37,941 bases of DNA, from the NCBI GenBank assembly GCA_016927565.1, contig JAFGMK010000006.1:1-37941 (forward strand), in the 5' to 3' direction. Origin of the DNA: Minisyncoccota bacterium (GTDB taxonomy: Bacteria > Patescibacteriota > Microgenomatia > PFEM01 > JAFGMK01). The notes beneath the pieces were generated by a model. That model was not told the DNA's origin and searched no databases. It worked only from the letters and a program-made list of their open reading frames with translations. Positions 4,568 through 24,128 of this stretch are shown here, piece after piece. The first letter of the stretch is position 1; each line of letters starts with the position of its first letter. Made by a program: the position numbers and the translations under genes.

Positions 4568-5548
4568 TCACCCAAATTTAAAATTCTCATCTGTATTATT
4601 TAGCTGCTTCAATAAAGCAGAATTAACTAGCTTAGGATGTTGTTTAATTAAATTTTGTAAATCCTTTCTTGACCTATCAGCAAAGTGGATTTGGTTATTG
4701 CTGATTGCTGTTTCCAAAATCAGATCAAACTGCTTTTTAGTGAATGAGTCAAATTCTGAAATCAAAGACGTTCTCCATTCCGAGGAAGCATATGAACGAG
4801 CTTTTTTTAGTGATTTAATAAGTAAATCAAGTACGATAGGTGCGCACCTTTGTTCGTTTTTGATTGCTTTGACAATTTTAATGCATTCTTTTTCTAATTC
4901 TTTAGACTTGAATTTTAATGCTTGATAAACGGAAAGAAATCCATGGGGATTAGGGCCGTTGTCAACGGAAACAGGAATAATTAGTTTACTTGTGATAAAT
5001 GCCATACCGGATTCTTGGTCCGTCCATTTTGACTCGTTAAATTCTGGAGTTATTATAGGGATGAAAACGTGGCAAGCTTTGAGATTGTCTATTATTACTT
5101 TTTGCCACTCCAAGGACGGCCTGATATCATCGTGTGCTAAAAACACATTAAAACCAAACTTCGACAGCCATCTTTTGATCTCTCCCGCCCCCTTTTTGTT
5201 TAAAGAAGAGTAGCTTATAAAAACTCTTATCTCATCTATTTTATCGTCTTTATTTTTAACCTGCGAGCGTTCCTGAATAAGATATTCCCTTTTATACTGT
5301 GCAATTATTTGCCTAATATAAACATCTATCTGTTCGGCAGCGTGTTTTCTGGTTTCTATGGGTATGCTTGGATAAAGGTGTTGGCTTAAACTTGTAAATT
5401 TTTTATATGAGTATCTTCTGCTTGTTTTTAACAAAGCATTAACTTCTGCTAACCAGTTTTTTGCGTCTTTATGTCCAGGGTCAGTGTAAAGCTGCTTAAC
5501 GTTAAGTAGCTTTAAATATTTTTCGAGTTCTTTGATCAGGTCCTTCAT
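4568..5548 (-). CDS. TIR-domain protein with helical N- and C-terminal regions
   Basis: IRVFISYSSLNKKGAGEIKRWLSKFGFNVFLAHDDI...SKWTDQESGMAF matches TIR signature including a plausible catalytic Glu. Confidence 0.88.
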   Translation of the reverse strand: MKDLIKELEKYLKLLNVKQLYTDPGHKDAKNWLAEVNALLKTSRRYSYKKFTSLSQHLYPSIPIETRKHAAEQIDVYIRQIIAQYKREYLIQERSQVKNKDDKIDEIRVFISYSSLNKKGAGEIKRWLSKFGFNVFLAHDDIRPSLEWQKVIIDNLKACHVFIPIITPEFNESKWTDQESGMAFITSKLIIPVSVDNGPNPHGFLSVYQALKFKSKELEKECIKIVKAIKNEQRCAPIVLDLLIKSLKKARSYASSEWRTSLISEFDSFTKKQFDLILETAISNNQIHFADRSRKDLQNLIKQHPKLVNSALLKQLNNTDENFKFG

Positions 5549-6216
5549 ATAATAGTTTTTTCTCTCTTTGCCTTTTCTAATAATTTCTTAAGGTCATTGG
5601 CCGGAATTAATGGGCAAAATTGACCCCAAACCCATTTTCCTTTTGCCCGGCCGGTTTTTCCAATAATGTAGTAACCAAGTCTGTATTCGATCTCCCCCTT
5701 TTTCCATTGTCCTCTATGGCTTAATTTTCCCTCATAACTTTCTTTCCGGAGTCTTTCTATAACAAAAACCTTTTCATCCAGATTACTCTGAGGCATAAAT
5801 GTCCAAGCTTCCCTAATCCAAAAATGTCGACCTTTTCGGCCGAGAGCCGAGCAGGTAAGACGGCGAATATTGCCGTTTTCGTGAGATAGAAATTCAAGAA
5901 GCGAACCAATATTTCTTTCATTTCCTTCTTTACCGACCAAAACTACATAAGAAGCCAAATCTTCAATTCTTTCTTTTAGGAGAAGACTAACTACGGCTTT
6001 GATATAAAATCTTTGGTAGCCCTTCAGAAGCCCATAAGTAGAAAAATTTGCTTGGTAGCCTTGCCCAATAATTCTTTTGGATCGTGAGCCTGTCAGAATT
6101 CTGACAAAATCAGTCTCCCTTTCGATTATTCCCGCACCTTCGTCAAGACATTTTTGAGTAGTTTTAAAAACATCTTGATTCCATTTAGGAATATAGCTAG
6201 TTCTATCTTTGGACAT
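5545..6216 (-). CDS. HEAT-like repeat protein with C-terminal GKWVWGQFCPLIPANDL module
   Basis: IGSLLEFLSHENGNIRRLTCSALGRKG HEAT-like; overlaps TIR start by 4 nt. Confidence 0.6.
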   Translation of the reverse strand: MSKDRTSYIPKWNQDVFKTTQKCLDEGAGIIERETDFVRILTGSRSKRIIGQGYQANFSTYGLLKGYQRFYIKAVVSLLLKERIEDLASYVVLVGKEGNERNIGSLLEFLSHENGNIRRLTCSALGRKGRHFWIREAWTFMPQSNLDEKVFVIERLRKESYEGKLSHRGQWKKGEIEYRLGYYIIGKTGRAKGKWVWGQFCPLIPANDLKKLLEKAKREKTII

Positions 6217-6224
6217 TTTACCCT

Positions 6225-7160
6225 TTATAATTTATATTTCTTTGCTACATCTCTTAGTTTTTCCGATCCCTCTTTTCCTTCTTCTTCTAAAAAATCAGCC
6301 ATGTGGCTATATAACTCATATAAACGCTTTGAGTTTTTGCTATTTACAATGGCTTTATTGAACAATGTCCAAGCAACATCATTCAAAGATGGCCTTTTCT
6401 CAAATTTTTCCGCAAGACTTATTGACGTTTCTTCCCAATCCGAATTGCTGAAACCAAACTTGTAAAGAATTTCAAGCCATTTACCGAAGTTAAAAATCTT
6501 AGGAAGCTGTTTCTTATAGCGAGGATATTTCTGTTTACATCTGTCAAAGCGTTTTGACAACGAGGTTATATCTCCCTGTGTAAAACGATGGAACGTAAAC
6601 TTGTTATTTTCAGCCAAGCCCCTTCTAATAATTTCAAGGCATTCTCTGTAATTTTTTTTCTTTTCATAACATAAAGAAAGACGTAAAAGGACTGGAAGAA
6701 AATATGTAGGACCAATGTCTTGAAAGTCTTTAATGATAGACGTGTATATTCTAATAGCCTCTGTGATATTAGTCTTTTCTAATTTTCTTCCGCGACTATA
6801 TAATTCATAAGCCAAGTCGTTTCTTTCCTTAAGTATTTCTGATTGTTTGAGTCTTTTTTTTGCTTTTTCTTTGAAATAACTCTTAGGAAGAATTCCTCCT
6901 GCTTTTTTTAGCTCGGCAACAATTTTATCTGATCCAAGTTCTTCTTTAAGAACTCCAACTAAAATACATCTGCAGCCATGAAGAGAAATACAGCTTTTTA
7001 TCCCTTTCTCATAGCCTCTAAGCTTTTCAAGCTGAGATTCATTATTCAAAATATGCAAACCATCAAGCTCTTTACAAATTCGGCAGGTGTTTTCATCTAA
7101 AATTGCAGAAATGTAAAAATATGCAATATTAGTATCGTAGATAGTAGGCATAAAAATCAA
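6225..7160 (-). CDS. Protein with N-terminal phage Mu gpF-like Cys motif and C-terminal TPR-like helices
   Basis: LDENTCRICKELDGL...HGCRCILVGVL resembles the minor-head-protein motif; NITEAIRIYTSIIKDF helical repeats. Confidence 0.6.
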   Translation of the reverse strand: MIFMPTIYDTNIAYFYISAILDENTCRICKELDGLHILNNESQLEKLRGYEKGIKSCISLHGCRCILVGVLKEELGSDKIVAELKKAGGILPKSYFKEKAKKRLKQSEILKERNDLAYELYSRGRKLEKTNITEAIRIYTSIIKDFQDIGPTYFLPVLLRLSLCYEKKKNYRECLEIIRRGLAENNKFTFHRFTQGDITSLSKRFDRCKQKYPRYKKQLPKIFNFGKWLEILYKFGFSNSDWEETSISLAEKFEKRPSLNDVAWTLFNKAIVNSKNSKRLYELYSHMADFLEEEGKEGSEKLRDVAKKYKL

Positions 7161-7163
7161 TAA

Positions 7164-7529
7164 TTATTCTTTCAAAAAACCTTTTAACATCTTAAAGAAA
7201 GTTTTAGGATTTGTTTTTATGGCTAGCTTTTCGAACTCATCTACTAAATTCTCTTTGTCAAATTTTTTCAGTAATCTTGCCGTGTACTTTATGTGGGTTT
7301 GTCCTCCAAAACCTCCTAGATAATAGATAACAAAACCCATTTTTTCTAATGCTTCAAGCCATCTTTTTTCCCTTGCGAGAATAATTGACATTTGATAATA
7401 CATCATAAACCACATATCATCTTTATTATTTGACAGCCTAATCAGTGCCTCATTAGCTACTTTCCAGGCTTTATCATATTCCTTTTGCTTGATTAACCCC
7501 TCAACTATATTTAAGTATTTGATGAACAT
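7164..7529 (-). CDS. Small TPR-like helical protein
   Basis: EGLIKQKEYDKAWKVANEALIRLS TPR-like repeat. Confidence 0.6.
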   Translation of the reverse strand: MFIKYLNIVEGLIKQKEYDKAWKVANEALIRLSNNKDDMWFMMYYQMSIILAREKRWLEALEKMGFVIYYLGGFGGQTHIKYTARLLKKFDKENLVDEFEKLAIKTNPKTFFKMLKGFLKE

Positions 7530-7541
7530 TAAAATGTGTGG

Positions 7542-9041
7542 CTACTTTAATTGTTGTAATTCTTCTAAAATTCTTACCATGGCAAAAGTATCTAGGGTGC
7601 AGTATTTACTAAGGTCTGAAATTATTTGCTTTTTTTGTTCTTGATTTTTACCCTTTAGAAAAGTCTGGGTCCATGTTCTTCTGGAGGCTAAACCATCTGA
7701 AACCATTAATTCTTTATAACTTAAATCGGGGCAAAGAACCGGCAATACATTTTTAATTGAAGCGCTTCCAAAAAAATCTTTGTCAAAAAACCACATTTCA
7801 GAAAATAGAGTCATTAGATCCATTATTCTTTCGTTTAGTCTATCTAAAAATTCTTTGTATTCAGGATACAGATTGGCCATTCTCTCATTACATCCTTTTT
7901 CATAACTCATATTCCAAGTAAGTACAGTTCCTGTATCTCCAATGTCTTGTTTTAGTTTTTGTAAAAGGGCCGGCGTTGGATTTGAGTTTTCTTGATATAA
8001 ATATTCAGCGTGTTTTACCTCTGCTCCAGGAGAGTCGATAACATGAAGTGAATACTGGAACGGATAATCCTTGTATGGACTTAAGCCATCAAAATCAGGG
8101 ATTATAGACGAGAAGGTTTCATAATCAAAAAAATACAGTGGGTATTGAAAAGTGTCTAGAAACTCTTTTATTTTCTCTTTTTCAAGAATCCTTTGGTTTT
8201 CCCTCGTCGTTTTTACTTGAGCCAGTTGTTTATCTCTTAAGCATTCCTCATCAGGAATGTCTTTCAAGAAAGTAATTCCTGCGTCTTCAAGTTTACCAAT
8301 TTGCTCGGCACTTGGGTAACTGAGTGAATAAATACTGTAAGGATCTAAATTAGGATTTAAGCTCTTGTAGATATCAAGCCACTCGGCAAGCCAGTTAACT
8401 CTTGGCACTTCCAGTTGATTTGCAAAACGTAGGGAGAGGTCGGGCATCTTATTTTGGGCCAAAACATCAAAGGCTTTTTGAACCTGCTCTTCTGTAATCT
8501 CAGAGAGCGCATGAACGGCACCAGTAACATCCGTTTTTTGGGTAAGCTGAGCGGAATCAATATTTCCTTCCCGAACATATTCCCTGTTAGCATGAATTAC
8601 TGCTATGTTTCTTACTTTTATTCCGGCTTTTGTGAGAACAGCTAATTGAAACGCCAAATCATATTCATGTTCTGGTTTTGCCTTGCTTGAAGATTTTATT
8701 TCAATAAGATCAAAAGTATCTTTCGAAGCTCTATCAAGCACGTCAACAATACAAGTAATCCCATCTGCCTCAAATCTTCCCTGTAAAATGGTCTTTGCAC
8801 CAGCTTTCAGTGTCGCGGCAGTCCTTGCCGGCAAAGAAATATATTCATCGTAGCTACTAAATCCAAGCCTCGTCGCTTCCGGAAACAACTCTTCTGCGTA
8901 TTTTTCAAAATCATGCCCAACATCAAACATTTCCTGAGTAGCCTCGTCAATGGCCGGAAGTTTCTCTTTTTGGTACTTTTTCAGCCACAGCCACGCAGGA
9001 TGTCTTAAAAAAAGCATGTAGTCTGACTTTGAGAGGATCAC
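7542..9041 (-). CDS. DUF2779-type nuclease (PD-(D/E)XK plus DnaQ-like exonuclease region)
   Basis: N-term SKSDYMLFLRHPAWLWLKK, FDLIEIKSSSK, and YFFDYETFSSIIP. Confidence 0.8.
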   Translation of the reverse strand: MILSKSDYMLFLRHPAWLWLKKYQKEKLPAIDEATQEMFDVGHDFEKYAEELFPEATRLGFSSYDEYISLPARTAATLKAGAKTILQGRFEADGITCIVDVLDRASKDTFDLIEIKSSSKAKPEHEYDLAFQLAVLTKAGIKVRNIAVIHANREYVREGNIDSAQLTQKTDVTGAVHALSEITEEQVQKAFDVLAQNKMPDLSLRFANQLEVPRVNWLAEWLDIYKSLNPNLDPYSIYSLSYPSAEQIGKLEDAGITFLKDIPDEECLRDKQLAQVKTTRENQRILEKEKIKEFLDTFQYPLYFFDYETFSSIIPDFDGLSPYKDYPFQYSLHVIDSPGAEVKHAEYLYQENSNPTPALLQKLKQDIGDTGTVLTWNMSYEKGCNERMANLYPEYKEFLDRLNERIMDLMTLFSEMWFFDKDFFGSASIKNVLPVLCPDLSYKELMVSDGLASRRTWTQTFLKGKNQEQKKQIISDLSKYCTLDTFAMVRILEELQQLK

Positions 9042-9062
9042 TCTATAATTACACTATTTTAA

Positions 9063-10322
9063 TTATTTCTTTTTACTACTTTTTTCAAATGCTTTTGCAA
9101 CACTTGGACTATTGGCAGTTAGTCTCTTTATCGATAGATCATCTGCTTTATTATTTGCTAAACGTAAATTGTTATCGGATTTCAGTAAGTTTTCTTTAAC
9201 CTTGTTTAAGTGGTCTATCGTTTTATCAATCTCCTCTACTGCTTTGGCAAATTGCCTAGATGCTAAGTTATAATTTCTTGCAAATGCATTTTTAAATGCA
9301 TTCATGTTGTTTTCAAAGTTCGTAACATCAATATTTTGATTCTTGAGTCTTTGAATCTTTTTTCTAAGTTCTTGTGATTTTATATTTCCTTGCCGTAGGA
9401 AACCGATAATTGTAATAAAATGCTGTGGTCTAATTGAATACATACTGGGGTAATCAGTGACCGTTACGATATCATCATAAAACTCATTATCCTTCTCAAG
9501 AAGACTTACTAGAACAGCAAATTCACAATTTTTTTCCCTCCGATCCTTATCTAACTTTTTGAAAAAATCTTTATTTTTATGTTTGGATGCAGTAGTGTCA
9601 TCCTCGTTTTTCATCTCGAACATAATAGATAAAATTTCATTCCCATCTTCGTCAACCTCTCGATAAATATAATCTCCCTTTGAACCTGATTTAAATACGT
9701 TGTTATCCTTGCCAAATTGTGCATTGGGGAAAGCAAATGGACGTATCCTGTTAAACTCATTTTCGCAGTGTACTTCTAGAGACTCGCCGATCATTTTAGT
9801 ACTCATTCTTGAACGCATCTCTTTTAGAGATACTAGAGCAGTTTCACTTGCTTGTAATTTATCTTGTAGTTTTTGTTCACTTAGTTCTTTTTGATGTTTA
9901 ATCTCTTGAATTTCAAGCTCTTTATCACCCAGCTTCTTTCGATACTCTTTTTCTAGCTTTTGACGTTCCTCTAGAGATTTAACCTTGGTTTCAGATTTAA
10001 CTTGTTTTGTAATGCTTTCGAGTTTTGTGTTGAGTGCAGCTATTTCTTGATTTTTCTTCTCAAGTGCTTCTTTTGCTTTACTGATAATATCCTTTTCTTT
10101 AAGCCTGGCCTCGAGTTCTTTTTCTTTCGTTATGCTTCTTTTAGCTGCTTCAAGCCTTGAGTCAAATTCATCGGTTTCGATTGACTTAATGAGATTATCT
10201 ATTGTTGTTTTATCAATATCTGTTTCGTGTATTGATTTGAGATCAATAATGTCTCCCTTTTGAGCATCTTCTTGCAGTACCAGAGTATTCTTATCTTGGA
10301 TAGATACCTTAACTTTTTTCAT
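9063..10322 (-). CDS. DUF2130 family coiled-coil protein
   Basis: Long coiled coil followed by GESLEVHCENEFNRIRPFAFPNAQFGKDN...GSKGDYIYRE, typical of DUF2130. Confidence 0.85.
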   Translation of the reverse strand: MKKVKVSIQDKNTLVLQEDAQKGDIIDLKSIHETDIDKTTIDNLIKSIETDEFDSRLEAAKRSITKEKELEARLKEKDIISKAKEALEKKNQEIAALNTKLESITKQVKSETKVKSLEERQKLEKEYRKKLGDKELEIQEIKHQKELSEQKLQDKLQASETALVSLKEMRSRMSTKMIGESLEVHCENEFNRIRPFAFPNAQFGKDNNVFKSGSKGDYIYREVDEDGNEILSIMFEMKNEDDTTASKHKNKDFFKKLDKDRREKNCEFAVLVSLLEKDNEFYDDIVTVTDYPSMYSIRPQHFITIIGFLRQGNIKSQELRKKIQRLKNQNIDVTNFENNMNAFKNAFARNYNLASRQFAKAVEEIDKTIDHLNKVKENLLKSDNNLRLANNKADDLSIKRLTANSPSVAKAFEKSSKKK

Positions 10323-10394
10323 TTATTAGCTTTTCTTTAGGCTTATACACCTTAGTTGGCTCAAATGATTTATTACAGTAGAAACAAGTATTTG

Positions 10395-12266
10395 TTATCT
10401 GCCATTATTTTCTATCTCATTAAACATTTTGACTATGTCATCAGGAATATCATTTTTGTCGGTGATGTATTCTGTCATGTATCGCGCACAATCTTTTTTG
10501 GACGGTAAATAGTCTGTTCTATTTTCATCTTGATTAACTTTGTCGCGCAGCAGCTTTTCGAATTTGTTCTCAGATTCTTCTCCCAAATTAGACCTCATGT
10601 CTTTCAAATTCTGATCGCTCAATTCGACCCCGCATTTTTCTTTAACTAGTTTAATCCAGTATTTATCATCTATACTATCTTCCAGGTTATATTGTCCTAC
10701 CAGGAAAATATTGTCTCCGGATGCTTTTGTGTCGCTGTCCAGTAAATAATACACACAATCATTTGGGTCTTTGAAATCCTGCATCATCTTTTCAAATAGT
10801 TTTTTATTTTCAGTCCACCTGTGGCCTCCGCCTAAACCCACGAATTGTACGGAGTCATCTTCAATAGACCTATCAAAATAAAGTTTATAAAAGTGTGGTA
10901 TTAGAATTTCGTCTGAGTCGCCTTCGCCTGCAATAAATATATCGTAAAAAAGAAAGTCGCTATTTTTGATACCGAGACTATCATGGACATCTGACACTGA
11001 GGAACAACTAGTAACGGCAGTGTATTTATTTGCCAACTGAACCTTTTGAATCGTTTCTAATTGCGATTTATCGACAAATACCGTGGAATGAGTACTGATA
11101 AAAGTTTGAAAAACCCCGCCGGATAATTGCTTAATGATTTCGTAAAAACTTCTCTTTTCTGGAGGATAGAGGTGCACTTCTGGCTCATCAAAACCCCACA
11201 AAAACTTCTTAGCCTTTGCCTCGTCGTTTATCCCTTTCATAGCGCCAAGTCTCATAAACGCAAATCCTATTTGTTTTTTCACGCCATCACCCTGCGACTC
11301 AAGTCTTACGCTTCCATCAGAATGGCCTTTTTCGACTGATATTTCAGATATGCTCTCATCTGATTTAAAAAATACCTTCGCTTTAATAGCTGTAATCGTA
11401 GGTAATCCCGAGAGTATTTCTCCAATCTTTTTTTTTAATTCTTCATTAACTTTGCTTGTAGCCTCTTGACCTAACCGTTCAGCTTCTTCCTTAAGTTTTG
11501 TACCGTATTCATCAACGACTGTAGCCATAGTATCTTTTGCCATATTTTCAACACTCTTTAGAGTTATTTCTCGCCAATCGATATATCTATATATGGGAAA
11601 AAACTGTCGATCCTTTTTCGCAAAATCCTCGTAGGTAGACCATTGGTCTGAAGTGGCAAGTCGATTGTAGATTGCACGAAACTTCTCTATGTTTTTAAAT
11701 CTGCCTTTTTCGTTGTCGTTGATTATATCTTTATCAGAAATCCCAATATTCTTTATGAGCCTATTAAGGGTCGTTTGGTTTTGTTGCCAAAGCTGTTTTT
11801 TTTCATCCTTTGCGCATATTAGATATCTCCCAGCAGGAAATTGGTCGCTAAACTGCCTAATTAACACAATTTCTTCATCGGAGTAGCTTTCTATAGACCA
11901 CTTCAGATGATTTGAGGCAATCTCATCGAAATCTTCTTCAAAATCTCCGTCCTGTTTTTGAAATACTCCAACCACAACAATTGATTTTTCTCGTCCAGAC
12001 TCGAATAACGGAATATCCAACTGACTAAATATCTCTTCATATCTATCTGTCTCTATTGGAGTTGTAGATAAATCTGAGGTCTCGTGCCCTTCTTGGACTA
12101 AGTTGGGCAAGCTTTTTTCGTCCAGAAGCAATCCAATTGCCTTTAGTATAGTGGATTTCCCAGAATCAGTCTGTCCAATAAAAGTATTCGGGAGGCCCTC
12201 GTTAAATTTCAGGATCAAGTCTCTACAGCTTTTATAATTAATAATCGCAATTTTTTTCAAGTACAT
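10395..12266 (-). CDS. OLD-family ATP-dependent endonuclease (AAA ATPase + TOPRIM)
   Basis: GQTDSGKSTILKAIG Walker A, GFDEPEVHLYP, FIAGEGDSDEIL and LLDSDT TOPRIM motifs. Confidence 0.88.
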   Translation of the reverse strand: MYLKKIAIINYKSCRDLILKFNEGLPNTFIGQTDSGKSTILKAIGLLLDEKSLPNLVQEGHETSDLSTTPIETDRYEEIFSQLDIPLFESGREKSIVVVGVFQKQDGDFEEDFDEIASNHLKWSIESYSDEEIVLIRQFSDQFPAGRYLICAKDEKKQLWQQNQTTLNRLIKNIGISDKDIINDNEKGRFKNIEKFRAIYNRLATSDQWSTYEDFAKKDRQFFPIYRYIDWREITLKSVENMAKDTMATVVDEYGTKLKEEAERLGQEATSKVNEELKKKIGEILSGLPTITAIKAKVFFKSDESISEISVEKGHSDGSVRLESQGDGVKKQIGFAFMRLGAMKGINDEAKAKKFLWGFDEPEVHLYPPEKRSFYEIIKQLSGGVFQTFISTHSTVFVDKSQLETIQKVQLANKYTAVTSCSSVSDVHDSLGIKNSDFLFYDIFIAGEGDSDEILIPHFYKLYFDRSIEDDSVQFVGLGGGHRWTENKKLFEKMMQDFKDPNDCVYYLLDSDTKASGDNIFLVGQYNLEDSIDDKYWIKLVKEKCGVELSDQNLKDMRSNLGEESENKFEKLLRDKVNQDENRTDYLPSKKDCARYMTEYITDKNDIPDDIVKMFNEIENNGR

Positions 12267-15200
12267 TATTCTGCTATCCCCTTATCAATCTCTTCCATAA
12301 TGTTACCTGTCTCTTTGAGTACCACAATCATCTTTTGATAATGCTCAATATCCGGGTTCGTGAGAGTTCTATCTTTTCGGTCCTTTAACCATTTTTGAGC
12401 TGGCTGATAACCACCAATCCGGAAATTCCAAGCAACTTCCGGTACCTTGCCAAAATATTGCTCGTCGTTTATAAACACTTTTCCCTCTTTGTATTCTGGC
12501 TTTTTCTCAACGATATTACTTCCCGTGACCGGATAGGTAGTGGCAAATTTGTTTACTTTCAGTGATTCAAGCAGGTGTAATTCACGCAATTGTCTACCAA
12601 ATTTCACAAGCCTTTCAAAAGTCTTTTTATTTTTTGGATATGGAACCCTAGGAAAACCCTTTTTCAAAAATTCTTGATACGTCTTTCTATATCTGGGTGA
12701 GTATAAGACTGCATAAATATAATCAATAATATCCTCAGGAGAAACTTTACCAACAATTTTTTCTATCCTATCAACTATTTCCTTTTCAAGATTTGGTCTG
12801 CGGGACCCATCAGTATTATAAAAATAAAGAGGTAATACATAACCAATTTCACTGGTTTTATTAGACACTAGAGTCGACTCAACTATGTTTCGAGAAATAA
12901 AAACATGTTGATATGAATCGCTAGCTTTAACCTGTCGCAAAACAACTAAAGCCAAATTGTCTTTTATTAGATGGTTCATCACTTCGCCTCTTGGCATACA
13001 GTGAAAACCGCGAGAATTACCAGTATAAAATGTCCATCTTGTATCAAATGGTCGATAATCAATAGGAACTATCTTGTCTGCGCTGTAGTTTCCGATAACG
13101 TCTTTCTTTGCTAATTCAACTTTCCAATCTCTAACGTCTCTCCCCAAATTATATTTCGCGCGGAGAACTTCAGAATCAAAGACTTCAAAATCTCGGACTA
13201 CTTTAGCAATATCCTTTCTAGAATACTGGATAGACATTTTGTCACGAGCTGTTACTATCCCAACACTTGAGACTGGGAATAAAGCTTCCGTTGAAAAACC
13301 TTTTTCATAAACATCTCTTGTCTTTTTATCAATAACTATCCACTCATAATTTGGAGACAGAGGTTTTACTTTTTGCCACCTGATCGTATTTATGGCATTT
13401 TCATTTAAAAATGCGAATTTGCTTTTCCGGCTACCAAGAATATCAGCCCGATATATTTTGGAAAAGCTTTTCTTCTGATTAATTCTTTTTATGCCAACAA
13501 AAATAGCTACCCCTTGTTTAATGTTAAAAATATTTTTGTCAGGAGCTCCATCCGATGCTTTTTCTCTTTTATTAGCATTTCCATGCAGGTCCAAAACAAA
13601 TATCTCATTAAATGTCTTCATTAGGTGCCAACGCATACCACGAAACGTCGGGTTATCGATATATCCGTGGGCAGTGATCATGGCTACAATTCCCTCGCCA
13701 GTTCTCTCGATCATGCTTTCCGCAAATCGAATAAATTTTACATAGTCATCATTGAGCCATTTAGAATTTCTTTCCTTAAGCTTCCCGCCCGTAGGCTCTA
13801 GTTTATAAACGTCATGGCCATTGTAGTTTTTATTACTTGATTCACCAAAATATGGAGGGTTGCCAATTACAACCATGATTGGTTTTTTGTTTTTTATTTT
13901 CGAGGCCTCTTTTGATTCCTCAGCAATGCTTTCTGCCAAACCAAAAGCAGTAAGCAAATCTTGTTGTACGCTGGCCTCCTCCAACGAGTTAGTAAGATAA
14001 ATGCCCAAACGACGATTATTAAAGTACTTAAACCCCGTTTCTTTAAAAGCCATACTTAGCTTTAAGTGGGCAATAGTGTAAGGAGTCATCATCAGTTCAA
14101 AGCCGTATAGGCGAGGTAATAAATCGTGAAGTACATAAGGGTGCCAGCGTCCTTCTTGACCAGTTTTCCTTAGATGCTCAAAAATGTTGCGAATTACTTT
14201 ACTAATAAATGTCCCCGTACCTACAGCAGGATCAAGAATTTGAACCCTATGCAATCCTTTAACTGTTTTTGAGGTATCAGATAAACCGTCAGGCAGTTTA
14301 AACTCTTTCTTAAGAAGGCAGTCAACAGAGCGAACTATAAATTGAACCACGGGAAGCGGTGTGTAATAAGCACCCATTTCTTTACGAAGTTCTGGATCGT
14401 ATTCTTTTAGAAAGTCTTCATAAAAGTGAATTACCGGATCTGGTTCACTATGGGTTTCTCCCCATAAGTCAGTTTTATAATACTCCTTCATAAGCTCTTT
14501 GACATTTGCATGAGAAAAAACCTCACACATCTCGTCAACAATATATTCAAGCCGTCTATCAAAATTTGGCCCAACAATATGATCAAAAAAATGTCTCAAA
14601 AAAGGATTTGATTTAGGAATTAGATCGCGGGCTTCCTGTCGGGTAAAGTCTCCTTGAGACTTATCATTATCCCTAGCTGCAAAAAGGCCATAAACTAATG
14701 TTTGAGCATACATATCGGCAAAGGAATTTTTAGTCAGCTCATGAACAAGGAATTTTTTGATCGTCTCATAGACACGTAGAAGCTCTGCGTTTGTGTCCGA
14801 ATGTATTGAAAGGAATTGCCGAATATTATCTCTAATCCTTTGTGCCTTTCCTGCCATAATTTTAGCGAGATGTTTACCCGAAGTGATGGGCTCTTTTTGT
14901 GACTGAATAAAATCCAGAAGGGTTTTGGCAACGTGTCCATAACTTTCAGGGACGGGAGTGATTATTCGACTCCGTAAGTCGTAAATAGCTATTTTGATTG
15001 GTTCTTCGTAGCGGAGGCCATTTCTATAAAAACGAAATTCTACATAATCAGTAAGTACCAAATTTGTGTAGCCGTAATATCGACCCATCTGCTCTGATTT
15101 CTCGACTTTGTCCAAATTGATTCCTATATCCTTTGTTTCTATGTATAAAATAGGTATATCATTCTTAAGCACAACAAAATCAGGCTTATTGCCTTGTCTG

Positions 15201-15358
15201 GCTTTATCATCGTGACCGATACGCTTGACGTTAATTGATTCAAAAATTCCTTTAAGGAGTATCTCAAAATTAGTGCGATATCCCATTTCACTCGTTTCTT
15301 TGTGAGAAAACTTTGAGGAAATTGCTTGAATGTAATCGTTAAAATGTTGATTGGTCAT
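12266..15358 (-). CDS. Type ISP/IIG-like restriction enzyme with N6-adenine methylase domain
   Basis: PDFVV...LYIETKDIG nuclease-like N-term, LDPAVGTGTFISKVI motif I, VIGNPPY motif IV, large C-terminal specificity-like region. Confidence 0.92.
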   Translation of the reverse strand: MTNQHFNDYIQAISSKFSHKETSEMGYRTNFEILLKGIFESINVKRIGHDDKARQGNKPDFVVLKNDIPILYIETKDIGINLDKVEKSEQMGRYYGYTNLVLTDYVEFRFYRNGLRYEEPIKIAIYDLRSRIITPVPESYGHVAKTLLDFIQSQKEPITSGKHLAKIMAGKAQRIRDNIRQFLSIHSDTNAELLRVYETIKKFLVHELTKNSFADMYAQTLVYGLFAARDNDKSQGDFTRQEARDLIPKSNPFLRHFFDHIVGPNFDRRLEYIVDEMCEVFSHANVKELMKEYYKTDLWGETHSEPDPVIHFYEDFLKEYDPELRKEMGAYYTPLPVVQFIVRSVDCLLKKEFKLPDGLSDTSKTVKGLHRVQILDPAVGTGTFISKVIRNIFEHLRKTGQEGRWHPYVLHDLLPRLYGFELMMTPYTIAHLKLSMAFKETGFKYFNNRRLGIYLTNSLEEASVQQDLLTAFGLAESIAEESKEASKIKNKKPIMVVIGNPPYFGESSNKNYNGHDVYKLEPTGGKLKERNSKWLNDDYVKFIRFAESMIERTGEGIVAMITAHGYIDNPTFRGMRWHLMKTFNEIFVLDLHGNANKREKASDGAPDKNIFNIKQGVAIFVGIKRINQKKSFSKIYRADILGSRKSKFAFLNENAINTIRWQKVKPLSPNYEWIVIDKKTRDVYEKGFSTEALFPVSSVGIVTARDKMSIQYSRKDIAKVVRDFEVFDSEVLRAKYNLGRDVRDWKVELAKKDVIGNYSADKIVPIDYRPFDTRWTFYTGNSRGFHCMPRGEVMNHLIKDNLALVVLRQVKASDSYQHVFISRNIVESTLVSNKTSEIGYVLPLYFYNTDGSRRPNLEKEIVDRIEKIVGKVSPEDIIDYIYAVLYSPRYRKTYQEFLKKGFPRVPYPKNKKTFERLVKFGRQLRELHLLESLKVNKFATTYPVTGSNIVEKKPEYKEGKVFINDEQYFGKVPEVAWNFRIGGYQPAQKWLKDRKDRTLTNPDIEHYQKMIVVLKETGNIMEEIDKGIAE

Positions 15359-15984
15359 TTCTGTTTGATTACTTGGGTTACTTTCCCATTAATCATAAAG
15401 TTATCATTCATGTTAATAACAATTGGCGGGTAATTCTCATCACTTGATTCAGATAAGAGCAAAATCTGACTGTTCTTGGTATTCTTGACAAACTTTTTAA
15501 TATTGGCACAGTCATCGATAATCGATAAAACATAATCGTTATTTCTTGGAGTACGATCTTTATAATCAACGATTACAAAATCCCCGTCTTCAATGCTTTT
15601 ACCATTGATATCTGCCTTATTCATGGAATTGCCGATAGCGCGAAGGGCGAAAATGTTTCTATTTCTTGCCAGTAAGCTAGAAGAAACTTTAAGATGGCCT
15701 TGAATTTTGTCTTCGGCAAAAGCGCAAGCCTGGCCACAATTAGCGCAACCAAAAACAGGGATATTTGTCAATTTTGGTTGAAGAACCTTGGAAGCTTTAA
15801 TTGTTTCTAAAACATTAAGATTTTTATCTAATTTAAGGTGGCCTTTTTTCTGGAGCTGTTGGAGATGATGCTTAACCTTTTGGGGATGGTTGATACCTAC
15901 CATTTTCCCGATTTCCCTGAGGCTCAATTTAGACAGATCTCTGGTCTTGGCTATTCTTAAAAGCTGTCGCTGGGTTTTATGCAT
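15355..15984 (-). CDS. LexA/UmuD-type autocleavable (S24) transcriptional repressor
   Basis: N-term HTH; NCGQACAFAED Cys-Gly cleavage-like site, AIGNSMN catalytic Ser, ANIKKF catalytic Lys; start moved to 15984 because TATAAT lies at 15996-15991. Confidence 0.85.
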   Translation of the reverse strand: MHKTQRQLLRIAKTRDLSKLSLREIGKMVGINHPQKVKHHLQQLQKKGHLKLDKNLNVLETIKASKVLQPKLTNIPVFGCANCGQACAFAEDKIQGHLKVSSSLLARNRNIFALRAIGNSMNKADINGKSIEDGDFVIVDYKDRTPRNNDYVLSIIDDCANIKKFVKNTKNSQILLLSESSDENYPPIVINMNDNFMINGKVTQVIKQK

Positions 15985-15990
15985 GGCTCG

Positions 15991-16067
15991 ATTATACCAC
16001 AAAATCTAATCAAACCCAACAATCGTCAATTGACGCTCTTGACAGGATTTGGTATTTATGCTATTTT
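15991..16067. promoter_or_regulatory. Divergent promoter/operator region
   Basis: Plus: TTGACA (16039-16044)-17 nt-TATTTT (16062-16067). Minus: TTGGGT-17 nt-TATAAT (15996-15991). Perfect 12-bp palindrome CGTCAATTGACG at 16024-16035 between them. Confidence 0.75.
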
Positions 16068-16428: not shown

Positions 16429-17700
16429 ATGAAAAAATTAAATATCGTATACATTGATATAAATGTTCCTATTCCTAGTGAATATAACCCAAGAACAAGT
16501 ACTAAATTTCAAGAGGAAAAACTTGACGAAAGTATAGGTGAATTCGATATTGTTCAGCCTCTTATTCTAAATTCTGCTCCCAATAGAAAAAACAAAATTA
16601 TCAGTGGTCATTTTCGTTGGCGAGAGGCCCAAAAGTTAGGATTTAAAAAAATTCCGGTTGTGCATCTAAGTATCCCTGACATCGATAAAGAAAAAAGGCT
16701 AAATTTGACCTTAAATCGGGTTTCTGGAGATTGGGATTATGAGCTTTTGAAAAGTTTTAAAATCGAAACACTTCTTGAATCGGGATTCGACGATTTTGAT
16801 CTGACCCATATTTTTGACGAGGTTCTGAGTGTTCAAAATGATGACTTCAACCTCGGTCATGAAATTTCGAAGATCAAAAAACCAAAAACTAAACCCGGAG
16901 ACCTGATTATTCTTGGCAACCATAGACTCTCTTGCTCAGATAGCTTAAATCCCAAAGCAATCAATAAACTCGTGGGCGATCACAAAATTAATATGCTCAA
17001 TTACGACCCGATTTACAATATCGGATTAGACTATAACAAAGGGGTCGGGACGCAAGGAAAATACGGCGGAAAAGTTAATGATAAAAAAAGCGATTCGGAA
17101 TACCGGGAGTTTTTAAAAACCGCACTGCAAAACGGACTGGATCACTGCTTACCGGATGCCCATATCTTTTGTTGGTGCGATGAGAAGTACATGGGGATGC
17201 TTCAGAGTCTTTATTCAGAATTAGGCATAAGTAATAAACGGGTCTGTCTCTGGATTAAAAATAATTCTTCACCGACTCCCCAGGTGGCTTTTAGTAAGGT
17301 TTTTGAAGCCTGTGTCTACGGGACGACAGGCTCGCCTTATTTATCTTCCTCGGTACGTAACTTGAATGAAATTATGAATGAAGAAGTGGGGACCGGAAAT
17401 AGGTTAATAGATGACATTCTAGACCTCTTCAATATTTGGTTAGTGAAACGTTTGAGCTCACAAGATTACGAACACCCAACTCAAAAACCGCCGACTTTGT
17501 ACGAAAAAGCATTCCGTCGCTGCAGTCGGCCGGGAGATATTATTCTTGATCTCTTTGGTGGTTCGGGGAGTCAGCTTGTTGCGGCCGAGCAGTTGAAAAG
17601 ACGGGTGTTTCTTTCGGAAATTGAGCCTATTTTTTGTGATGTGATTGTCTCCAGATATGAAAAATTAGCTAAAAGAAAGGCTGTATATGTCAATTCATAA
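16429..17700 (+). CDS. ParB-like nuclease domain + DNA methyltransferase
   Basis: IVQPLILNSAP..KIISGHFRWREAQKLG ParB fold; YDPIYNIGL motif IV; DLFGGSGSQLVAAEQ motif I. Confidence 0.88.
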   Translation: MKKLNIVYIDINVPIPSEYNPRTSTKFQEEKLDESIGEFDIVQPLILNSAPNRKNKIISGHFRWREAQKLGFKKIPVVHLSIPDIDKEKRLNLTLNRVSGDWDYELLKSFKIETLLESGFDDFDLTHIFDEVLSVQNDDFNLGHEISKIKKPKTKPGDLIILGNHRLSCSDSLNPKAINKLVGDHKINMLNYDPIYNIGLDYNKGVGTQGKYGGKVNDKKSDSEYREFLKTALQNGLDHCLPDAHIFCWCDEKYMGMLQSLYSELGISNKRVCLWIKNNSSPTPQVAFSKVFEACVYGTTGSPYLSSSVRNLNEIMNEEVGTGNRLIDDILDLFNIWLVKRLSSQDYEHPTQKPPTLYEKAFRRCSRPGDIILDLFGGSGSQLVAAEQLKRRVFLSEIEPIFCDVIVSRYEKLAKRKAVYVNS

Positions 17701-18430
17701 AAATGAAATTTACCAACTAGGGCCACATTTGCTAGCTTGTGGGGATGCCTTGAATCCTGAAATTGTTAATAGACTTATCGGAAAGAAAAAGATTCCGTTA
17801 GTTTTAAGTGATATGCCCTATGCTATTGGCCTTGTTGAAAACAAGGTCGGGTTTAACCAAACAGGAAACAGAAAAAGGATAATCAATGATCATTTGCAGT
17901 CCGATGAAGAATATATGGTCTTCACTAAAAAATGGCTGGAATTAGTTAAGCCGCATTTAGCAGATAAAAATTCCTTTTATTTGTTCAACTCAGACAAAAT
18001 GATTTTTGCTATGCGAGAGGCAATAATTAAAGCTGGCTTTAAATTCTCACAACTTCTCATCTGGGTTAAAAACCATTCGGTTCTTGGCCGAATGGATTAT
18101 CTTGTCCAGCACGAGCTAATTGCTTACGGCTGGTATGGTACTCATAAATTTCAAAAGTCGCAGGATAAAACAGTCCTACTATGTCCTAAGCCCAACAAAA
18201 GCCCTCTTCATCCTACTATGAAACCAGTAAGTCTTCTTCGAAGACTGATTTTAAACAGTTCCAAGATTAGCGATTGGGTATACGATCCTTTCGCTGGATC
18301 TGGGAGCTTAGTAATAGCCTGCGAACAGACAAGAAGAAAAGCACTTCTTATCGAAATTGATCCCGATTACTGCCAAACGACAATTAACAGATTTGAAAAA
18401 TTTACTGGTATTAAAGCTAAAAAATTATGA
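17687..18430 (+). CDS. DNA methyltransferase, paralogous to the preceding MTase domain
   Basis: LLACGDALNPEIVNRLIG...SDMPYAIGL, HPTMKPVSLLRRLI, YDPFAGSGSLVIACEQ. Confidence 0.88.
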   Translation: MSIHKNEIYQLGPHLLACGDALNPEIVNRLIGKKKIPLVLSDMPYAIGLVENKVGFNQTGNRKRIINDHLQSDEEYMVFTKKWLELVKPHLADKNSFYLFNSDKMIFAMREAIIKAGFKFSQLLIWVKNHSVLGRMDYLVQHELIAYGWYGTHKFQKSQDKTVLLCPKPNKSPLHPTMKPVSLLRRLILNSSKISDWVYDPFAGSGSLVIACEQTRRKALLIEIDPDYCQTTINRFEKFTGIKAKKL

Positions 18431-18846
18431 ATAAACAAAAAACTACCATAAGAAAAAGAGTTAAAAATGATCAAGAGTTGATAATTAGTCAGCTTAAGAA
18501 AACGCCGATCATCCAAATTGCTTGTGAAAAAACCTCTATTGGCAGAAGCACTTATTACAGATGGTTAGAGAAATGTCCTGATTTTGCCAAAAAGGCAAGA
18601 GGGGCAATTAAAGAAGGAGAAAGCTTAGTTTCGGATCTAGCAGAATCACAGCTTATATCGGCAATAAGAGATAGAAATCTAACCTCGATAATTTTCTGGC
18701 TAAAAAATCATGATCCTGTATACAGCGATAAGGTTGAGTTGACCACTTCAAGAAATGAAGAAGAAAAACTAACCCCTGAACAGCAAAAATTAATCGAAAA
18801 AGCGCTGGCCATGTTAAAAGATGATGACATCCAAAAAAAGGACTAA
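18427..18846 (+). CDS. Terminase small-subunit-like HTH protein
   Basis: IIQIACEKTSIGRSTYYRWLEKCPDFAKKAR HTH; directly upstream of terminase large subunit. Confidence 0.7.
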   Translation: MNKQKTTIRKRVKNDQELIISQLKKTPIIQIACEKTSIGRSTYYRWLEKCPDFAKKARGAIKEGESLVSDLAESQLISAIRDRNLTSIIFWLKNHDPVYSDKVELTTSRNEEEKLTPEQQKLIEKALAMLKDDDIQKKD

Positions 18847-20437
18847 TTTTATGGATATTAATAGTAAAATATTTAAAGCAATTATCAAAAACCGTCTAAT
18901 CAGAAAGACGCTGGCAAAGCTTAGTCATTATTACTTCTTCCACATATATCTTGCTCATCATATTCAATACGAAACCGCTCCTTTTCAAAAGGAAATAATA
19001 TCAATCACCGAAAACTTTAAACAGAAGTTTGCTATTCTCCTCGCCTTCCGTGGGTCTGCCAAGTCGACTTTAGTTTCTCTCTCATATACCATTTGGTCAG
19101 TAATTGGTAAGCAAAATCTTAAATTCATCCTTCTAATCAGTCAAACTCAAGGGCAAGCCAGGCAGCTACTGGCTAATATTAAAAGTGAATTCGAGTCAAA
19201 CGAGTTATTAAGAAAAGACTTTGGCCCTTTTGAAGACTCAAATGAGATTTGGAGATCAAATTCTCTGGTTTTGGCTCGATACAAATCCAAAATCATGGCA
19301 GCCTCTTTGGGCGAAAGCATTCGCGGCTATAAACATGGACAGTACCGGCCTCAATTAATAATTCTTGACGATATTGAGGACAATAACTCCATAAGAACAA
19401 AGGATAGCAGAGACAAAACATATAACTTTGTAACTAGCGACGTGATCCCGGCTGGTGATATCGAAACAAAATATCTTCTAGTAGGAAATCTTTTACATTC
19501 CGACTCAGTAGTTATGCGCTTTAAAAATGAGATTGAGGATGGCGATCGTGATGGGATTATTAAAAAATATCCTTTTTGGGATAAAGATAAAAAACCACTT
19601 TGGGCTACGAAATTTAACACAAAGAAATCTATCGAAAAACTCAAAAAAAGAGTCGGGAACGATAAAATTTTTAGACAAGAGTATTTGCTTGAAATCGTAT
19701 CCAACGAAGAACAGGTAATCGAAAGAAAATGGATTCAACGGTATGATAAATTGCCTCTTTTTGTGGGAAACGGTTATCGATATACAGCGATTGGAGTCGA
19801 CTTGGCCATTTCTGATAAAGATTCTGCTAATTTCACCTCTTTTGTTGCCGCTCATGTTTTTGGTCGTGGCGAAAACCTAAAAATATATATTCTTCCGCAC
19901 CCGGTAAACAAAAGAATGAAATTTTCAGAAACAGAAGACCAACTAAAGGCTCTGGTTGAAAGTCTTGGAGGTAAAGAACGAGTGAAAATTTACATTGAAT
20001 CCGTTGGATACCAAGAAGCTTTTGCTCAAAGAATGAGTCAATTGGGATACTATGCATACGGAGTTAGCGTTCATAGCGCCTCGAAAAGAGAAAGGTTGCT
20101 ATTCGTTTCAAACACGGTCAGAGCAGGCAAATCGGTCTTCCCTCCATCAGGTACTAGCGAACTTGAAGATCAGATGGTTAACTTTGGCGTTGAGAAATAT
20201 GATGATCTTGCTGACGCGTTTTCGATCTTGATCAAAAAAATAATGGAGGAGGACAAACAGTCAGATGGACCTATTATCGTCAGATCATCAGGTCTTTATC
20301 AATCAGTTCAGATAAATAGACACTGTTACACCAACCATCTTGGTTTAATGAAAAAAGATTGGGCAGACAGAGAGGATCAAGAAATTTTCAAAAAATACGG
20401 GATGAAGAATCCTCGGAGAATCTACGGGCTTCCTTGA
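18821..20437 (+). CDS. Phage terminase large subunit
   Basis: LAFRGSAKSTLVS Walker A, QLIILDDIEDN Walker B, IGVDLAISDKDSANFTS and KYDDLADAFS nuclease motifs. Confidence 0.92.
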   Translation: MMTSKKRTNFMDINSKIFKAIIKNRLIRKTLAKLSHYYFFHIYLAHHIQYETAPFQKEIISITENFKQKFAILLAFRGSAKSTLVSLSYTIWSVIGKQNLKFILLISQTQGQARQLLANIKSEFESNELLRKDFGPFEDSNEIWRSNSLVLARYKSKIMAASLGESIRGYKHGQYRPQLIILDDIEDNNSIRTKDSRDKTYNFVTSDVIPAGDIETKYLLVGNLLHSDSVVMRFKNEIEDGDRDGIIKKYPFWDKDKKPLWATKFNTKKSIEKLKKRVGNDKIFRQEYLLEIVSNEEQVIERKWIQRYDKLPLFVGNGYRYTAIGVDLAISDKDSANFTSFVAAHVFGRGENLKIYILPHPVNKRMKFSETEDQLKALVESLGGKERVKIYIESVGYQEAFAQRMSQLGYYAYGVSVHSASKRERLLFVSNTVRAGKSVFPPSGTSELEDQMVNFGVEKYDDLADAFSILIKKIMEEDKQSDGPIIVRSSGLYQSVQINRHCYTNHLGLMKKDWADREDQEIFKKYGMKNPRRIYGLP

Positions 20438-20473: not shown

Positions 20474-20719
20474 ATATAAGATTGGAGAAATTGTCTCCGA
20501 TTTTATATAATCAAATTGACAATTTAAATATTGCCTAAACTCAGAGGCGCAAGCCTCTGGGCATGGCAGGAAAACCAGTTCAGGGACGAGGGCTCCTCGT
20601 CAGTATTACCTGAACTGGTCACCAATCGAAAGGTTGGCGGGTGGAATCCGTAAGGCCCATCAGCTGGCGGGGAGCTTTTGTAGTAAATCCCCCTCCAGCA
20701 ATTAAGAATTGGAGGGAAA
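20474..20719 (+). promoter_or_regulatory. Candidate structured leader RNA with SD-sequestering hairpin
   Basis: 15-bp hairpin 20474-20508; CAGAGGC-GCAA-GCCTCTG; 11-bp helix 20574-20584/20609-20619 enclosing GACGAGG-GCT-CCTCGTC; CCAATC-GAAA-GGTTGG; CCCTCC (20691-20696) pairs with SD GGAGGG (20711-20716). Confidence 0.7.
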
Positions 20720-21793
20720 ATGGCGATCATCATCTCAAAAAACGGCAAAAACGCAGTCAAAATCGATAAAAGCAATTTCAAACTGGAAGATCATCTTCAA
20801 CAGTATATCTATGACAACCCGGAAAGTATTCCCCTTTATGAGATTAAAGAAGACATTCGGCTTTTGATTCTGGCCAGAGAGTTTTCTACTAAAAGCGGAC
20901 CAATTGACGCTTTAGGGATAGACAAAGATGGCGAGATTTATCTGGTGGAAACAAAGCTTTACAAAAACCCAGATAAGAGAACCGTGGTGGCTCAGGTTCT
21001 GGATTATGGCGCTTCTCTCTGGTCAAATTACCGTGATTTTGCTGACTTTATCGAGCAAGTCGGAATTCATACCAACAAAGATTTTAACCAAACCTTAGGT
21101 CAAAGACTAGGCGAATTCTTTGGTATTTCAGAAGATGAAACCGATACCCTCCTAGAAAATACCAGAAGAAATTTAAGTGACGGTAATTTTAAATTCGTAG
21201 TCTTAATGAACCACCTTCATCCGCAATTAAAAGACTTAATCATTTTCCTAAACAACAACAGCGAATTTACGGTTTATGCGGTTGAATTGGAATACTATAA
21301 ACATCAGGATTTTGAAATCCTGATTCCCAAACTGTACGGTTCAGAGGTTAAAAAAGACCTGGGCAAATCAACTTCTTCAAGGATTGTTCCAGCAGACGAG
21401 GAGTTTTTAAATAGCTACAAGGATAGGCCGGAAATGGATAAGGTAAGAGAGTTACTGGAGTTTAAAAATGAGATTAAAGAAAACCCGGAAAAGTTTCCCA
21501 ATATCTTAGCTTCAAAATCACCTAAATATCTGAATTTCTACACGGTTACCTCGTTTGAAGATAAAGTTTCAATTAATTTGCCGATGAATCCGGAAGCTGA
21601 AGGCGGCGGTTTACAGATCTGGATCACCGATAAGAATAAAGATGGGGCTAATAAAGTACTCAACAAAAAAATCATTAAGTACGAAAGAATTCCTTCTAAG
21701 GGAAAACAATACGGGAAAGTAGCCAGGGTGGAATTAAAAGATCTATCAATTAGCGACTTTGAACGTTTTTTAAGAGAGTTGGCAAAGATTTAA
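20720..21793 (+). CDS. PD-(D/E)XK nuclease-like protein (NucS-like N-terminus)
   Basis: GPIDALGIDKDGEIYLVETKLYKNPDKRTVVAQVLDYGASL. Confidence 0.75.
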   Translation: MAIIISKNGKNAVKIDKSNFKLEDHLQQYIYDNPESIPLYEIKEDIRLLILAREFSTKSGPIDALGIDKDGEIYLVETKLYKNPDKRTVVAQVLDYGASLWSNYRDFADFIEQVGIHTNKDFNQTLGQRLGEFFGISEDETDTLLENTRRNLSDGNFKFVVLMNHLHPQLKDLIIFLNNNSEFTVYAVELEYYKHQDFEILIPKLYGSEVKKDLGKSTSSRIVPADEEFLNSYKDRPEMDKVRELLEFKNEIKENPEKFPNILASKSPKYLNFYTVTSFEDKVSINLPMNPEAEGGGLQIWITDKNKDGANKVLNKKIIKYERIPSKGKQYGKVARVELKDLSISDFERFLRELAKI

Positions 21794-21843: not shown

Positions 21844-23154
21844 GTGTTGACAATGGATAACCAAACTCAGGAGACACCGATTAACTACTGCTTATATGCC
21901 CGAAAATCCAGCGAATCAGACGAACGGCAAGCAATGTCGATTGGTTCCCAGATTAAGGAAATGAAAGACTTGGCCAAAAGGGACAAACTTAATATTATTG
22001 ACGTTTATCAAGAAAGCCACTCAGCTAAAATCTCCAACACACGGCCAATCTTTGGCAAACTCCTAACTGATATCGTTCAGGGGAAATTCAACGGTATTTT
22101 AGCCTGGGCGCCGGACAGGTTAAGCCGGAATGCCGGAGACTTAGGAATGTTAGTTGACATGATGGACCAGGGGAAACTTCTTAAGATTAAAACTTATTCT
22201 CAAACTTTTTCTAATAATCCAAATGAGAAATTTTTGTTAATGATACTTTGTAGTCAGGCAAAACTGGAAAACGATCAAAAAGGAGAGAATGTAAAAAGAG
22301 GGATTAGAGCAAAATGTGAGCAAGGATGGCGACCAGGCATGGCACCTCTTGGATATTTTAACCGAGCGCATGCCGGGACTAAAGACATTATTATTGATCC
22401 CAAACAAGGGCCATTAGTCAAAGAGGCTTTTGAAAAAGTTGCTTTCCAAAATTGGTCGGGTAGAAAATTAAAAGAGTGGTTTGACAAAGTCGGGTTTGCT
22501 AATCGTTCAGGGAAACTAGCGACTCTGAGCCAAATTTATTTGATGTTAAAAAAACCATTTTATTACGGCAGGTTTGAATATCCAGAAGGAAGCGGCAATT
22601 GGTATCAGGGAGCTCATGAGCCATTGATTACCAAAAAACTTTTTGACAAAGTCCAGGAAAAATTAGTGGTTCCTAAAAAATCAAAGTGGGGTAGCCGGAA
22701 TGTACTTTTCAGAGATGTTTTTAAATGTGCCAGTTGCGGAGCAACAATAACCGGAGAAGAAAAGTTCAGGAAAAGAAAACAGGGGAATCCGAGAAGACAT
22801 GTTTATTACCAGTGCGCTAAGGCCAGAAACAAAAAATGCAAAGAAGTAATGCTAAGCGAGAAACAGCTAATCGGAGCACTAACAAGATATGTCAATTTTA
22901 TGAGCCTACACCATCCTCAAAAGATAAAACTAACCCACAAAGTAAAAACCGGTATGGAAACATACCGGAAAATCCGGGAGCAAGTATTGTTGCTTAAGGA
23001 TATTAATCCCGGCTCAGAAGAAATTTCATTTACTGAATACGCCAAGTATGTTCTCCGGGACGGATCTAACGAGGAAAAAAGGGAAATCGTCAAAGTATTC
23101 GGCAAGTATCTCTACATCCACGATAAGGAAGTTTGTTCGGCCCCAATAAGTTAG
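21844..23154 (+). CDS. Large serine recombinase, second copy
   Basis: CLYARKSSESDERQA, WAPDRLSRNAGD, CASCGAT...YYQCAKARNKKC; clearly homologous to 1835-3154. Confidence 0.95.
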   Translation: MLTMDNQTQETPINYCLYARKSSESDERQAMSIGSQIKEMKDLAKRDKLNIIDVYQESHSAKISNTRPIFGKLLTDIVQGKFNGILAWAPDRLSRNAGDLGMLVDMMDQGKLLKIKTYSQTFSNNPNEKFLLMILCSQAKLENDQKGENVKRGIRAKCEQGWRPGMAPLGYFNRAHAGTKDIIIDPKQGPLVKEAFEKVAFQNWSGRKLKEWFDKVGFANRSGKLATLSQIYLMLKKPFYYGRFEYPEGSGNWYQGAHEPLITKKLFDKVQEKLVVPKKSKWGSRNVLFRDVFKCASCGATITGEEKFRKRKQGNPRRHVYYQCAKARNKKCKEVMLSEKQLIGALTRYVNFMSLHHPQKIKLTHKVKTGMETYRKIREQVLLLKDINPGSEEISFTEYAKYVLRDGSNEEKREIVKVFGKYLYIHDKEVCSAPIS

Positions 23155-23858: not shown

Positions 23859-24057
23859 AAATGTTCAAATAAACCGATTAAAATGTTGAGCTTATTATAT
23901 CATTCCAACTGATGATTTCCCTCAGATAAAAGTCGGATTCGAACGGGGCTTTTTTGAGGATAAAAAACGGTTCGAATTCTCGATTTTTGAAAGTGGCTTT
24001 TAGCAAGATAACAAGGGATATTTGAGACACCTCGGTCGGTTGAGGTGCCCGTGCGTG

Positions 24058-24128
24058 CTGCCGGGCAGGGATTCGAACCCCGATACACAGATTCAGAGTC
24101 TGCGGTCCTGCCATTAGACGACCCGGCA
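24058..24128 (-). tRNA. tRNA-Gln (anticodon CUG)
   Basis: TGCCGGG/CCCGGCA acceptor, anticodon loop CTCTGAA, T-arm CGGGGTTCGAATCCCTG; CCA not encoded. Confidence 0.93.

Follow-up and report, generated by a model that had tools for sequence, protein, structure and literature searches.

A LOOT RNA upstream of a nuclease gene in a Patescibacterial mobile element: a conserved helix beyond the Rfam model and a predicted two-state leader

Mobile elements are carriers of highly structured RNAs with GNRA loops, such as HEARO/omega RNA, GOLLD, and ROOL. LOOT RNA resembles these in its mobile-element carriage, its high degree of structure and its GNRA loops, but differs from them in its length of ~130–165 nt, in preceding variable cargo genes, and in showing no Rfam match to them; moreover, no TnpB/IscB-type effector was linked to LOOT among the neighbours inspected. 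A second point of comparison is offered by the transcription-attenuating riboswitches, with which LOOT shares a structured core, mutually exclusive folds, a terminator-like helix followed by a U-tract, and a leader location. Unlike in these riboswitches, however, the genes that LOOT would regulate are mutually unrelated, and the 5′ arm of its putative terminator is supplied by the tip of a core hairpin ~65 nt upstream. LOOT (RF03000) is a ZWD-derived Rfam family (PMC7779021, PMC11701678). The Rfam entry is typed as 'Gene; sRNA'. No functional study of LOOT was found in the searchable literature, outside of which the original 2017 description lay, and searches on LOOT function, Patescibacterial riboswitches, and the HK022 put RNA yielded nothing usable.

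The LOOT RNA described here lies in a contig stretch of 37,941 nucleotides from a Minisyncoccota bacterium (the window), within the interval 20474–20719 that is flanked by a phage-type terminase large-subunit gene (18821–20437) and the gene of a NucS-like PD-(D/E)XK-type protein (20720–21793, + strand; PADLOC candidate PDC-S11), the latter being the downstream cargo gene in this case. A first-pass annotation had described this interval as highly structured, which is indeed the case: its minimum free energy (MFE) is −105.1 kcal/mol as compared to a shuffled mean of −67.1 kcal/mol (z = −8.0), and 0 of 200 shuffles folded as low. The same annotation had failed to match the region to a known riboswitch, intron, or HEARO/omega RNA. 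A cmscan search against Rfam 15, however, identified positions 20532–20661 (+ strand) as LOOT with 72.9 bits, the gathering score being 46.4 (E values of 4.9e-14 to 5e-12). Given this clear match, an outcome that the annotation itself had named as refuting, the claim of a new family is refuted, and the window RNA is a fresh member of a known one. The match is full length (model positions 1–121) and covers all of P1, P2, P3, and P4. At E ≤ 1, Rfam returned nothing besides LOOT on the region, and in the entire window it matched LOOT and a tRNA only, leaving HEARO/omega RNA unmatched.

The four-helix architecture of LOOT with its conserved CCUAAAC/GCAUGG loop and GAAA-capped P3 is present in the window, all parts being on the + strand. 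P1 harbors the two halves of an internal loop (CCUAAAC, 20534–20540, and GCAUGG, 20561–20566), while P2 comprises an 11-bp helix (20574–20584 paired with 20609–20619) around an apical strand A (20585–20603), which can form either a local 7-bp hairpin (20585–20591/20595–20601) or the long-range helix discussed below. The P3 (20622–20637) and P4 (20640–20661) hairpins are capped by GAAA (20628–20631) and GUAA (20650–20653), respectively. The initially noted nesting of a 7-bp helix in an 11-bp one thus corresponds to P2, and a likewise proposed GGGGA/TCCCC helix belongs to the predicted fold. GNRA-capped hairpins had also been rightly recognized but undercounted, two having been reported where, together with GCAA (20549–20552), there are three such loops. 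On the other hand, a proposed long-range TGGGC/GCCCA pairing has to be discarded, because it is contradicted by the family structure, in which these letters fall into the separate helices P1 and P4. A superficial likeness of GCCTAAAC to an integron attC half-site was also considered and rejected, as a matching partner half is missing and RNA-type pairs are found instead.

The internal loop of P1 resembles the 11-nt GAAA-tetraloop receptor, the canonical form of which is CCUAAG/UAUGG (PMC11381326). Most loci found with the covariance model (CM) carry CCUAAA...CAUGG in P1, and the P3 loop is GAAA in 43 of the 56 CM-found loci. The shared elements are hence CCUAA-A/C-AUGG in P1 and GAAA in P3 of most loci, whereas the position of the receptor's G-U wobble is occupied by A-C (or C-U) in LOOT; UAUGG is kept at L047, L071, L085, and L089. 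Judged from these sequence features, P3 probably docks into P1 by means of a GAAA tetraloop/receptor interaction.

The Rfam model stops short of a further conserved element. When the loci are set side by side, a strand with the sequence CUGGCGGGGAGCUUUUU or variants thereof appears directly 3′ of the model end, and this strand is complementary to the apex of P2. In the window, strand F (CUGGCGGGGAGCUUUUG) with its U-tract spans 20664–20680 (+ strand) and pairs with strand A in a duplex of −33.0 kcal/mol (20585–20603/20664–20680). This main long-range pairing, which is conserved in the family, was absent from the first-pass annotation. As the model ends before strand F, the A:F helix, the U-tract, and the leader context all lie outside of it. 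The pairing was assessed in a comparison set of 123 loci; 38 of 184 candidates remained unparsed and were left out rather than scored as negatives, several of them being chance pattern matches (e. g., L098, L120, L210, L212, L216, L218, and L220) and others resembling genuine LOOT. Across the set, the A:F duplex has a median energy of −25.9 kcal/mol, compared to −16.6 kcal/mol when the apex is matched with a 3′ strand taken from a different locus and −13.5 kcal/mol when it is matched with shuffled strands. Covariation points in the same direction: with strands A and F aligned independently and without structural information, a single antidiagonal holds all eight column pairs that rank highest in mutual information; these are 87–100 % paired, and C-G, U-G, G-C, U-A, and A-U substitute for each other in them. 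The helix spans 15 columns, in which 88.5 % of the cells are paired, as opposed to a permuted mean of 70.9 % and a maximum of 73.2 % (500 permutations), and sliding the strands against each other leaves only 44–54 % paired. Double changes occur at all 15 of 15 pairs, and the outcome was the same on 87 non-redundant loci.

The core of the A:F helix is followed by 6.5 T in 10 nt, as compared to a background of 2.6 farther downstream, even though the U-tract is broken by G at several loci (CUUUGUGUUU). A strong helix that leads directly into a U-rich tract is the layout of an intrinsic terminator, and on account of this tract the A:F helix is predicted to act as one.

The local hairpin of strand A, which the Rfam model contains as its inner helix, is itself conserved (median of −5.7 vs. 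−2.2 kcal/mol for shuffled sequences) and ranks in the best 5 % against shuffles at 93 of 123 loci. This apical P2 hairpin and the A:F helix are mutually exclusive. When either was forced in nested folds of 122 loci, the median difference between them amounted to 1.3 kcal/mol (IQR −1.5 to 4.3), the total being ~−60 kcal/mol; such energies ignore pseudoknots and tertiary contacts. Extending the 3′ end of the window RNA stepwise, the MFE structure turns from P2 to A:F once the end reaches 20680–20690 and returns to P2, now together with an F:G helix, after strand G (20688–20699) has been added; the whole flip spans 20680–20700. While the full 18-bp A:F helix is probably sterically incompatible with a closed P2, a shorter pseudoknotted version may be compatible with it.

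The open reading frame next to LOOT is co-directional at 108 of 117 loci (108 vs. 9), and its start codon lies at a median of 39 nt past the A:F helix (quartiles 27–68), so that at most loci a separate promoter would hardly fit in between. The earlier idea of a bistable expression platform thus holds in outline, given that two exclusive and near-isoenergetic folds are found in an RNA that precedes a co-directional gene (108/117). We consider it rather probable that LOOT, strand F, and the U-tract together constitute a cis-acting attenuator or riboswitch-like leader for the cargo of serine-recombinase elements, a role suggested by the position before cargo genes. Points against such a leader are the diversity of the downstream genes, which is unusual for a metabolite riboswitch, the typing as sRNA, and a promoter-like sequence of its own (see below). 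According to this model, P2 would be closed with its apical hairpin in a first fold, and P1 would probably be docked to P3 via the GAAA tetraloop and 11-nt-type receptor. In a second fold, strand F would capture the P2 apex to yield a helix of 14–20 bp that runs into the U-tract and so takes the form of an intrinsic terminator. If some factor or condition stabilized the docked P2 fold, the polymerase could then read through into the cargo gene. At some loci, that of the window included, strand G would subsequently pair with F and thus free the Shine-Dalgarno (SD) sequence, with which it would otherwise be paired.

This last step concerns strand G (UCCCCCUCCAGC; 20688–20699, + strand) and the SD sequence GGAGGG of the nuclease gene (20711–20716, + strand). 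The complementarity between CCCTCC (20691–20696) and this SD had been correctly located before. In the window, F:G pairing amounts to −19.7 kcal/mol vs. −10.1 kcal/mol for G:SD, and the alternative pairing of G with either F or SD would, if the model is right, tie the switch to translation. Similarly strong G strands are found at L040, L047, L050, L052, L062, L073, L074, and L077, and strong G:SD pairing in the window as well as at L047, L050, L052, L062, and L077. Among the 33 testable loci, F:G pairing stands out clearly from shuffles (p = 2.5e-7) but not from cross-pairing (p = 0.08), and the same holds for G:SD (p = 0.04 and p = 0.20, respectively). Sequestration of the SD, as initially proposed, is hence clear for the window RNA and for some other loci, but weak as a family-wide property. 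In our view, pairing of the G strand is one version of the expression platform and does not define the family.

Upstream of the RNA, a −10 box TATAAT (20506–20511, + strand) and a −35-like TGGAGA (20483–20488), separated by a 17-nt spacer and amounting to 10 of 12 matches, form a probable LOOT promoter. TATAAT precedes by 7 nt a conserved ACAATTT (20519–20525, + strand), which is the probable 5′ end of the transcript. The motif A[CA]AA[TC][TC] recurs in 72 of 117 loci (11 expected from shuffles), and in 45 of these 72 loci a −10-like box is located 5–8 nt ahead of the ACAATT-like motif, as compared to 12.5 expected. A 15-bp palindrome (20474–20508) overlaps the −10 box and is not evident at the other loci. 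Since it lies upstream of the likely start and overlaps with the promoter, it probably does not belong to the RNA and was rejected as such; it might be an operator or the terminator of the upstream terminase operon.

The promoter-like sequence and conserved 5′ end just described, the U-tract after a strong helix, and the Rfam typing as sRNA are what would be expected if LOOT were an independent, trans-acting sRNA transcribed from its own promoter, with A:F and the U-tract as constitutive terminator and the gene order as mere layout. This is the main rival and the simpler explanation, and some lineages furthermore carry a promoter-like sequence after LOOT. Nevertheless, we judge it rather unlikely. 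It leaves the expression of a cargo gene ~39 nt downstream unexplained, and the 39-nt median together with the 108:9 ratio of co-directional genes implies that most cargo genes must be read through LOOT. Moreover, a simple terminator hairpin would suffice for an sRNA, yet the 5′ arm of the A:F helix lies hidden within a competing hairpin that is conserved.

One lineage (L048, L050, L053, L059, L063, L064, L066, L087, and others) has a conserved, longer post-LOOT spacer followed by varied cargo. This spacer carries TTGACA-N17-TAACAT, a promoter-like sequence ahead of the cargo gene, which in this lineage may, as far as the sequence indicates, have a promoter of its own.

LOOT scored above the cut-off in 52 of 374 genomes of the window's class, almost always as a single copy. 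A DNA pattern scan moreover placed it, by genome labels, across many Patescibacterial groups, including Levy-, Woese-, Roizman-, Yanofsky-, Uhr-, Peregrini-, Doudna-, and Saccharibacteria, and also on contigs of viral collections, six loci of which were confirmed by Rfam. A few bins labelled as other phyla likewise contain a confirmed LOOT (L137, Bacillota; L174, Lentisphaerae), possibly owing to mis-binning. Two remnants, L093 and L094, fall below the threshold, the former (73 nt) being devoid of P2 and the latter of the 5′ half; such degenerate copies could reveal which parts of LOOT are dispensable.

The surroundings of LOOT are characteristic of mobile elements. A large serine recombinase (PF07508) is encoded within 7.5 kb at 42 of 56 loci, with ~4 % expected, and within 12 kb at 47. 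Likewise, such recombinases occur in 51 of 52 LOOT-bearing genomes vs. 27 of 50 LOOT-less relatives (Fisher p = 4.5e-8). Further neighbours are DUF5659 proteins, MerR-like small HTH proteins, and phage replication-initiator-like and terminase small-subunit genes. The DUF5659 protein (~80–100 aa) is found at 26 of 58 loci (e. g., L048, L053, L059, and L080), mostly encoded on the opposite strand ~0.3–2 kb upstream of LOOT, and is a candidate for a core partner in the element. The close linkage to large serine recombinases and terminase genes might also be taken to mean that the element works as DNA, such as a folded site at which recombination or packaging takes place. Such a function appears extremely unlikely in view of the many G-U pairs in the conserved helices, the GNRA loops and the tetraloop-receptor-like loop, which are features of RNA, and the promoter-like sequence upstream.

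The products of the genes that follow LOOT are diverse. An N-terminal hydrophobic segment is present in 69 of 108 of them, compared to 224 of 1102 background ORFs (p = 3e-20), while other post-LOOT genes encode type I and III DNA methylases or a GmrSD endonuclease. The PDC-S11/NucS-like nuclease follows LOOT at five loci, namely in the window and at L113, L136, L171, and L213, the homologues at the latter four being 41–60 % identical. The viral-collection contig IMGVR_UViG_3300025323_000435 bears two LOOTs, one ahead of a PDC-S11-like nuclease (L213) and one ahead of a type I methylase (L221).

It had been suggested from the window alone that the RNA is guide-like or autoregulatory and binds the adjacent PD-(D/E)XK protein, and the recurrence of this protein family after LOOT at the five loci (window, L113, L136, L171, and L213) would fit such a partnership. 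As ~100 other loci have unrelated next genes (for membrane proteins, type I/III methylases, GmrSD, and others), with the LOOT core unchanged, a nuclease-binding function seems very unlikely, and a guide RNA for the nuclease is rejected because of this downstream diversity. In view of these diverse products, LOOT behaves as a portable cargo leader and not as the partner of one protein.

Taking the cis-acting leader one step further, we tentatively propose, with somewhat more doubt than confidence, that LOOT is a riboswitch-like attenuator and serves Patescibacterial mobile elements as a portable control unit for their cargo of defense and membrane proteins. Its input would be the overall condition of element or host instead of a pathway metabolite, and the sensing fold would be locked by the tetraloop and its receptor, with the apex of its hairpin also serving as the 5′ arm of the terminator. 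If true, this would show how elements in very small genomes control defense and surface genes. The public model in any case gains a strongly covarying helix, and a two-state switch is predicted with its exact strands. In addition, LOOT has a consistent niche in Patescibacterial serine-recombinase elements, directly ahead of variable cargo such as restriction-modification and exported proteins. The added helix, the switch model, and this niche appear to be new with respect to the Rfam model and the searchable papers; priority is not claimed.

In the window, the large serine recombinase of the element (PF00239/PF07508/PF13408) is encoded at 21844–23154 (+ strand), right behind the nuclease gene. 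A second, related one is found at 1835–3154, and the pair encloses ~20 kb of accessory genes. A tRNA-Gln (24057–24128) lies just outside; the element may be composite or represent two adjoining insertions. Between the recombinases, a run of defense-type genes on the − strand (4568–15358) includes a type IIG restriction-methylase (12266–15358), an OLD/GajA-like ATPase-TOPRIM protein (10395–12266), a Cas4-like nuclease (7542–9041), and a TIR-domain protein similar to ThsB (4568–5548), and is headed by a LexA-like S24 peptidase regulator (15355–16002). The adjacent region 16429–20437, near which no recognizable capsid genes were seen, encodes a ParB-methyltransferase fusion, a second DNA methylase, and the small and large terminase subunits, and thus resembles a phage-satellite-like packaging module.
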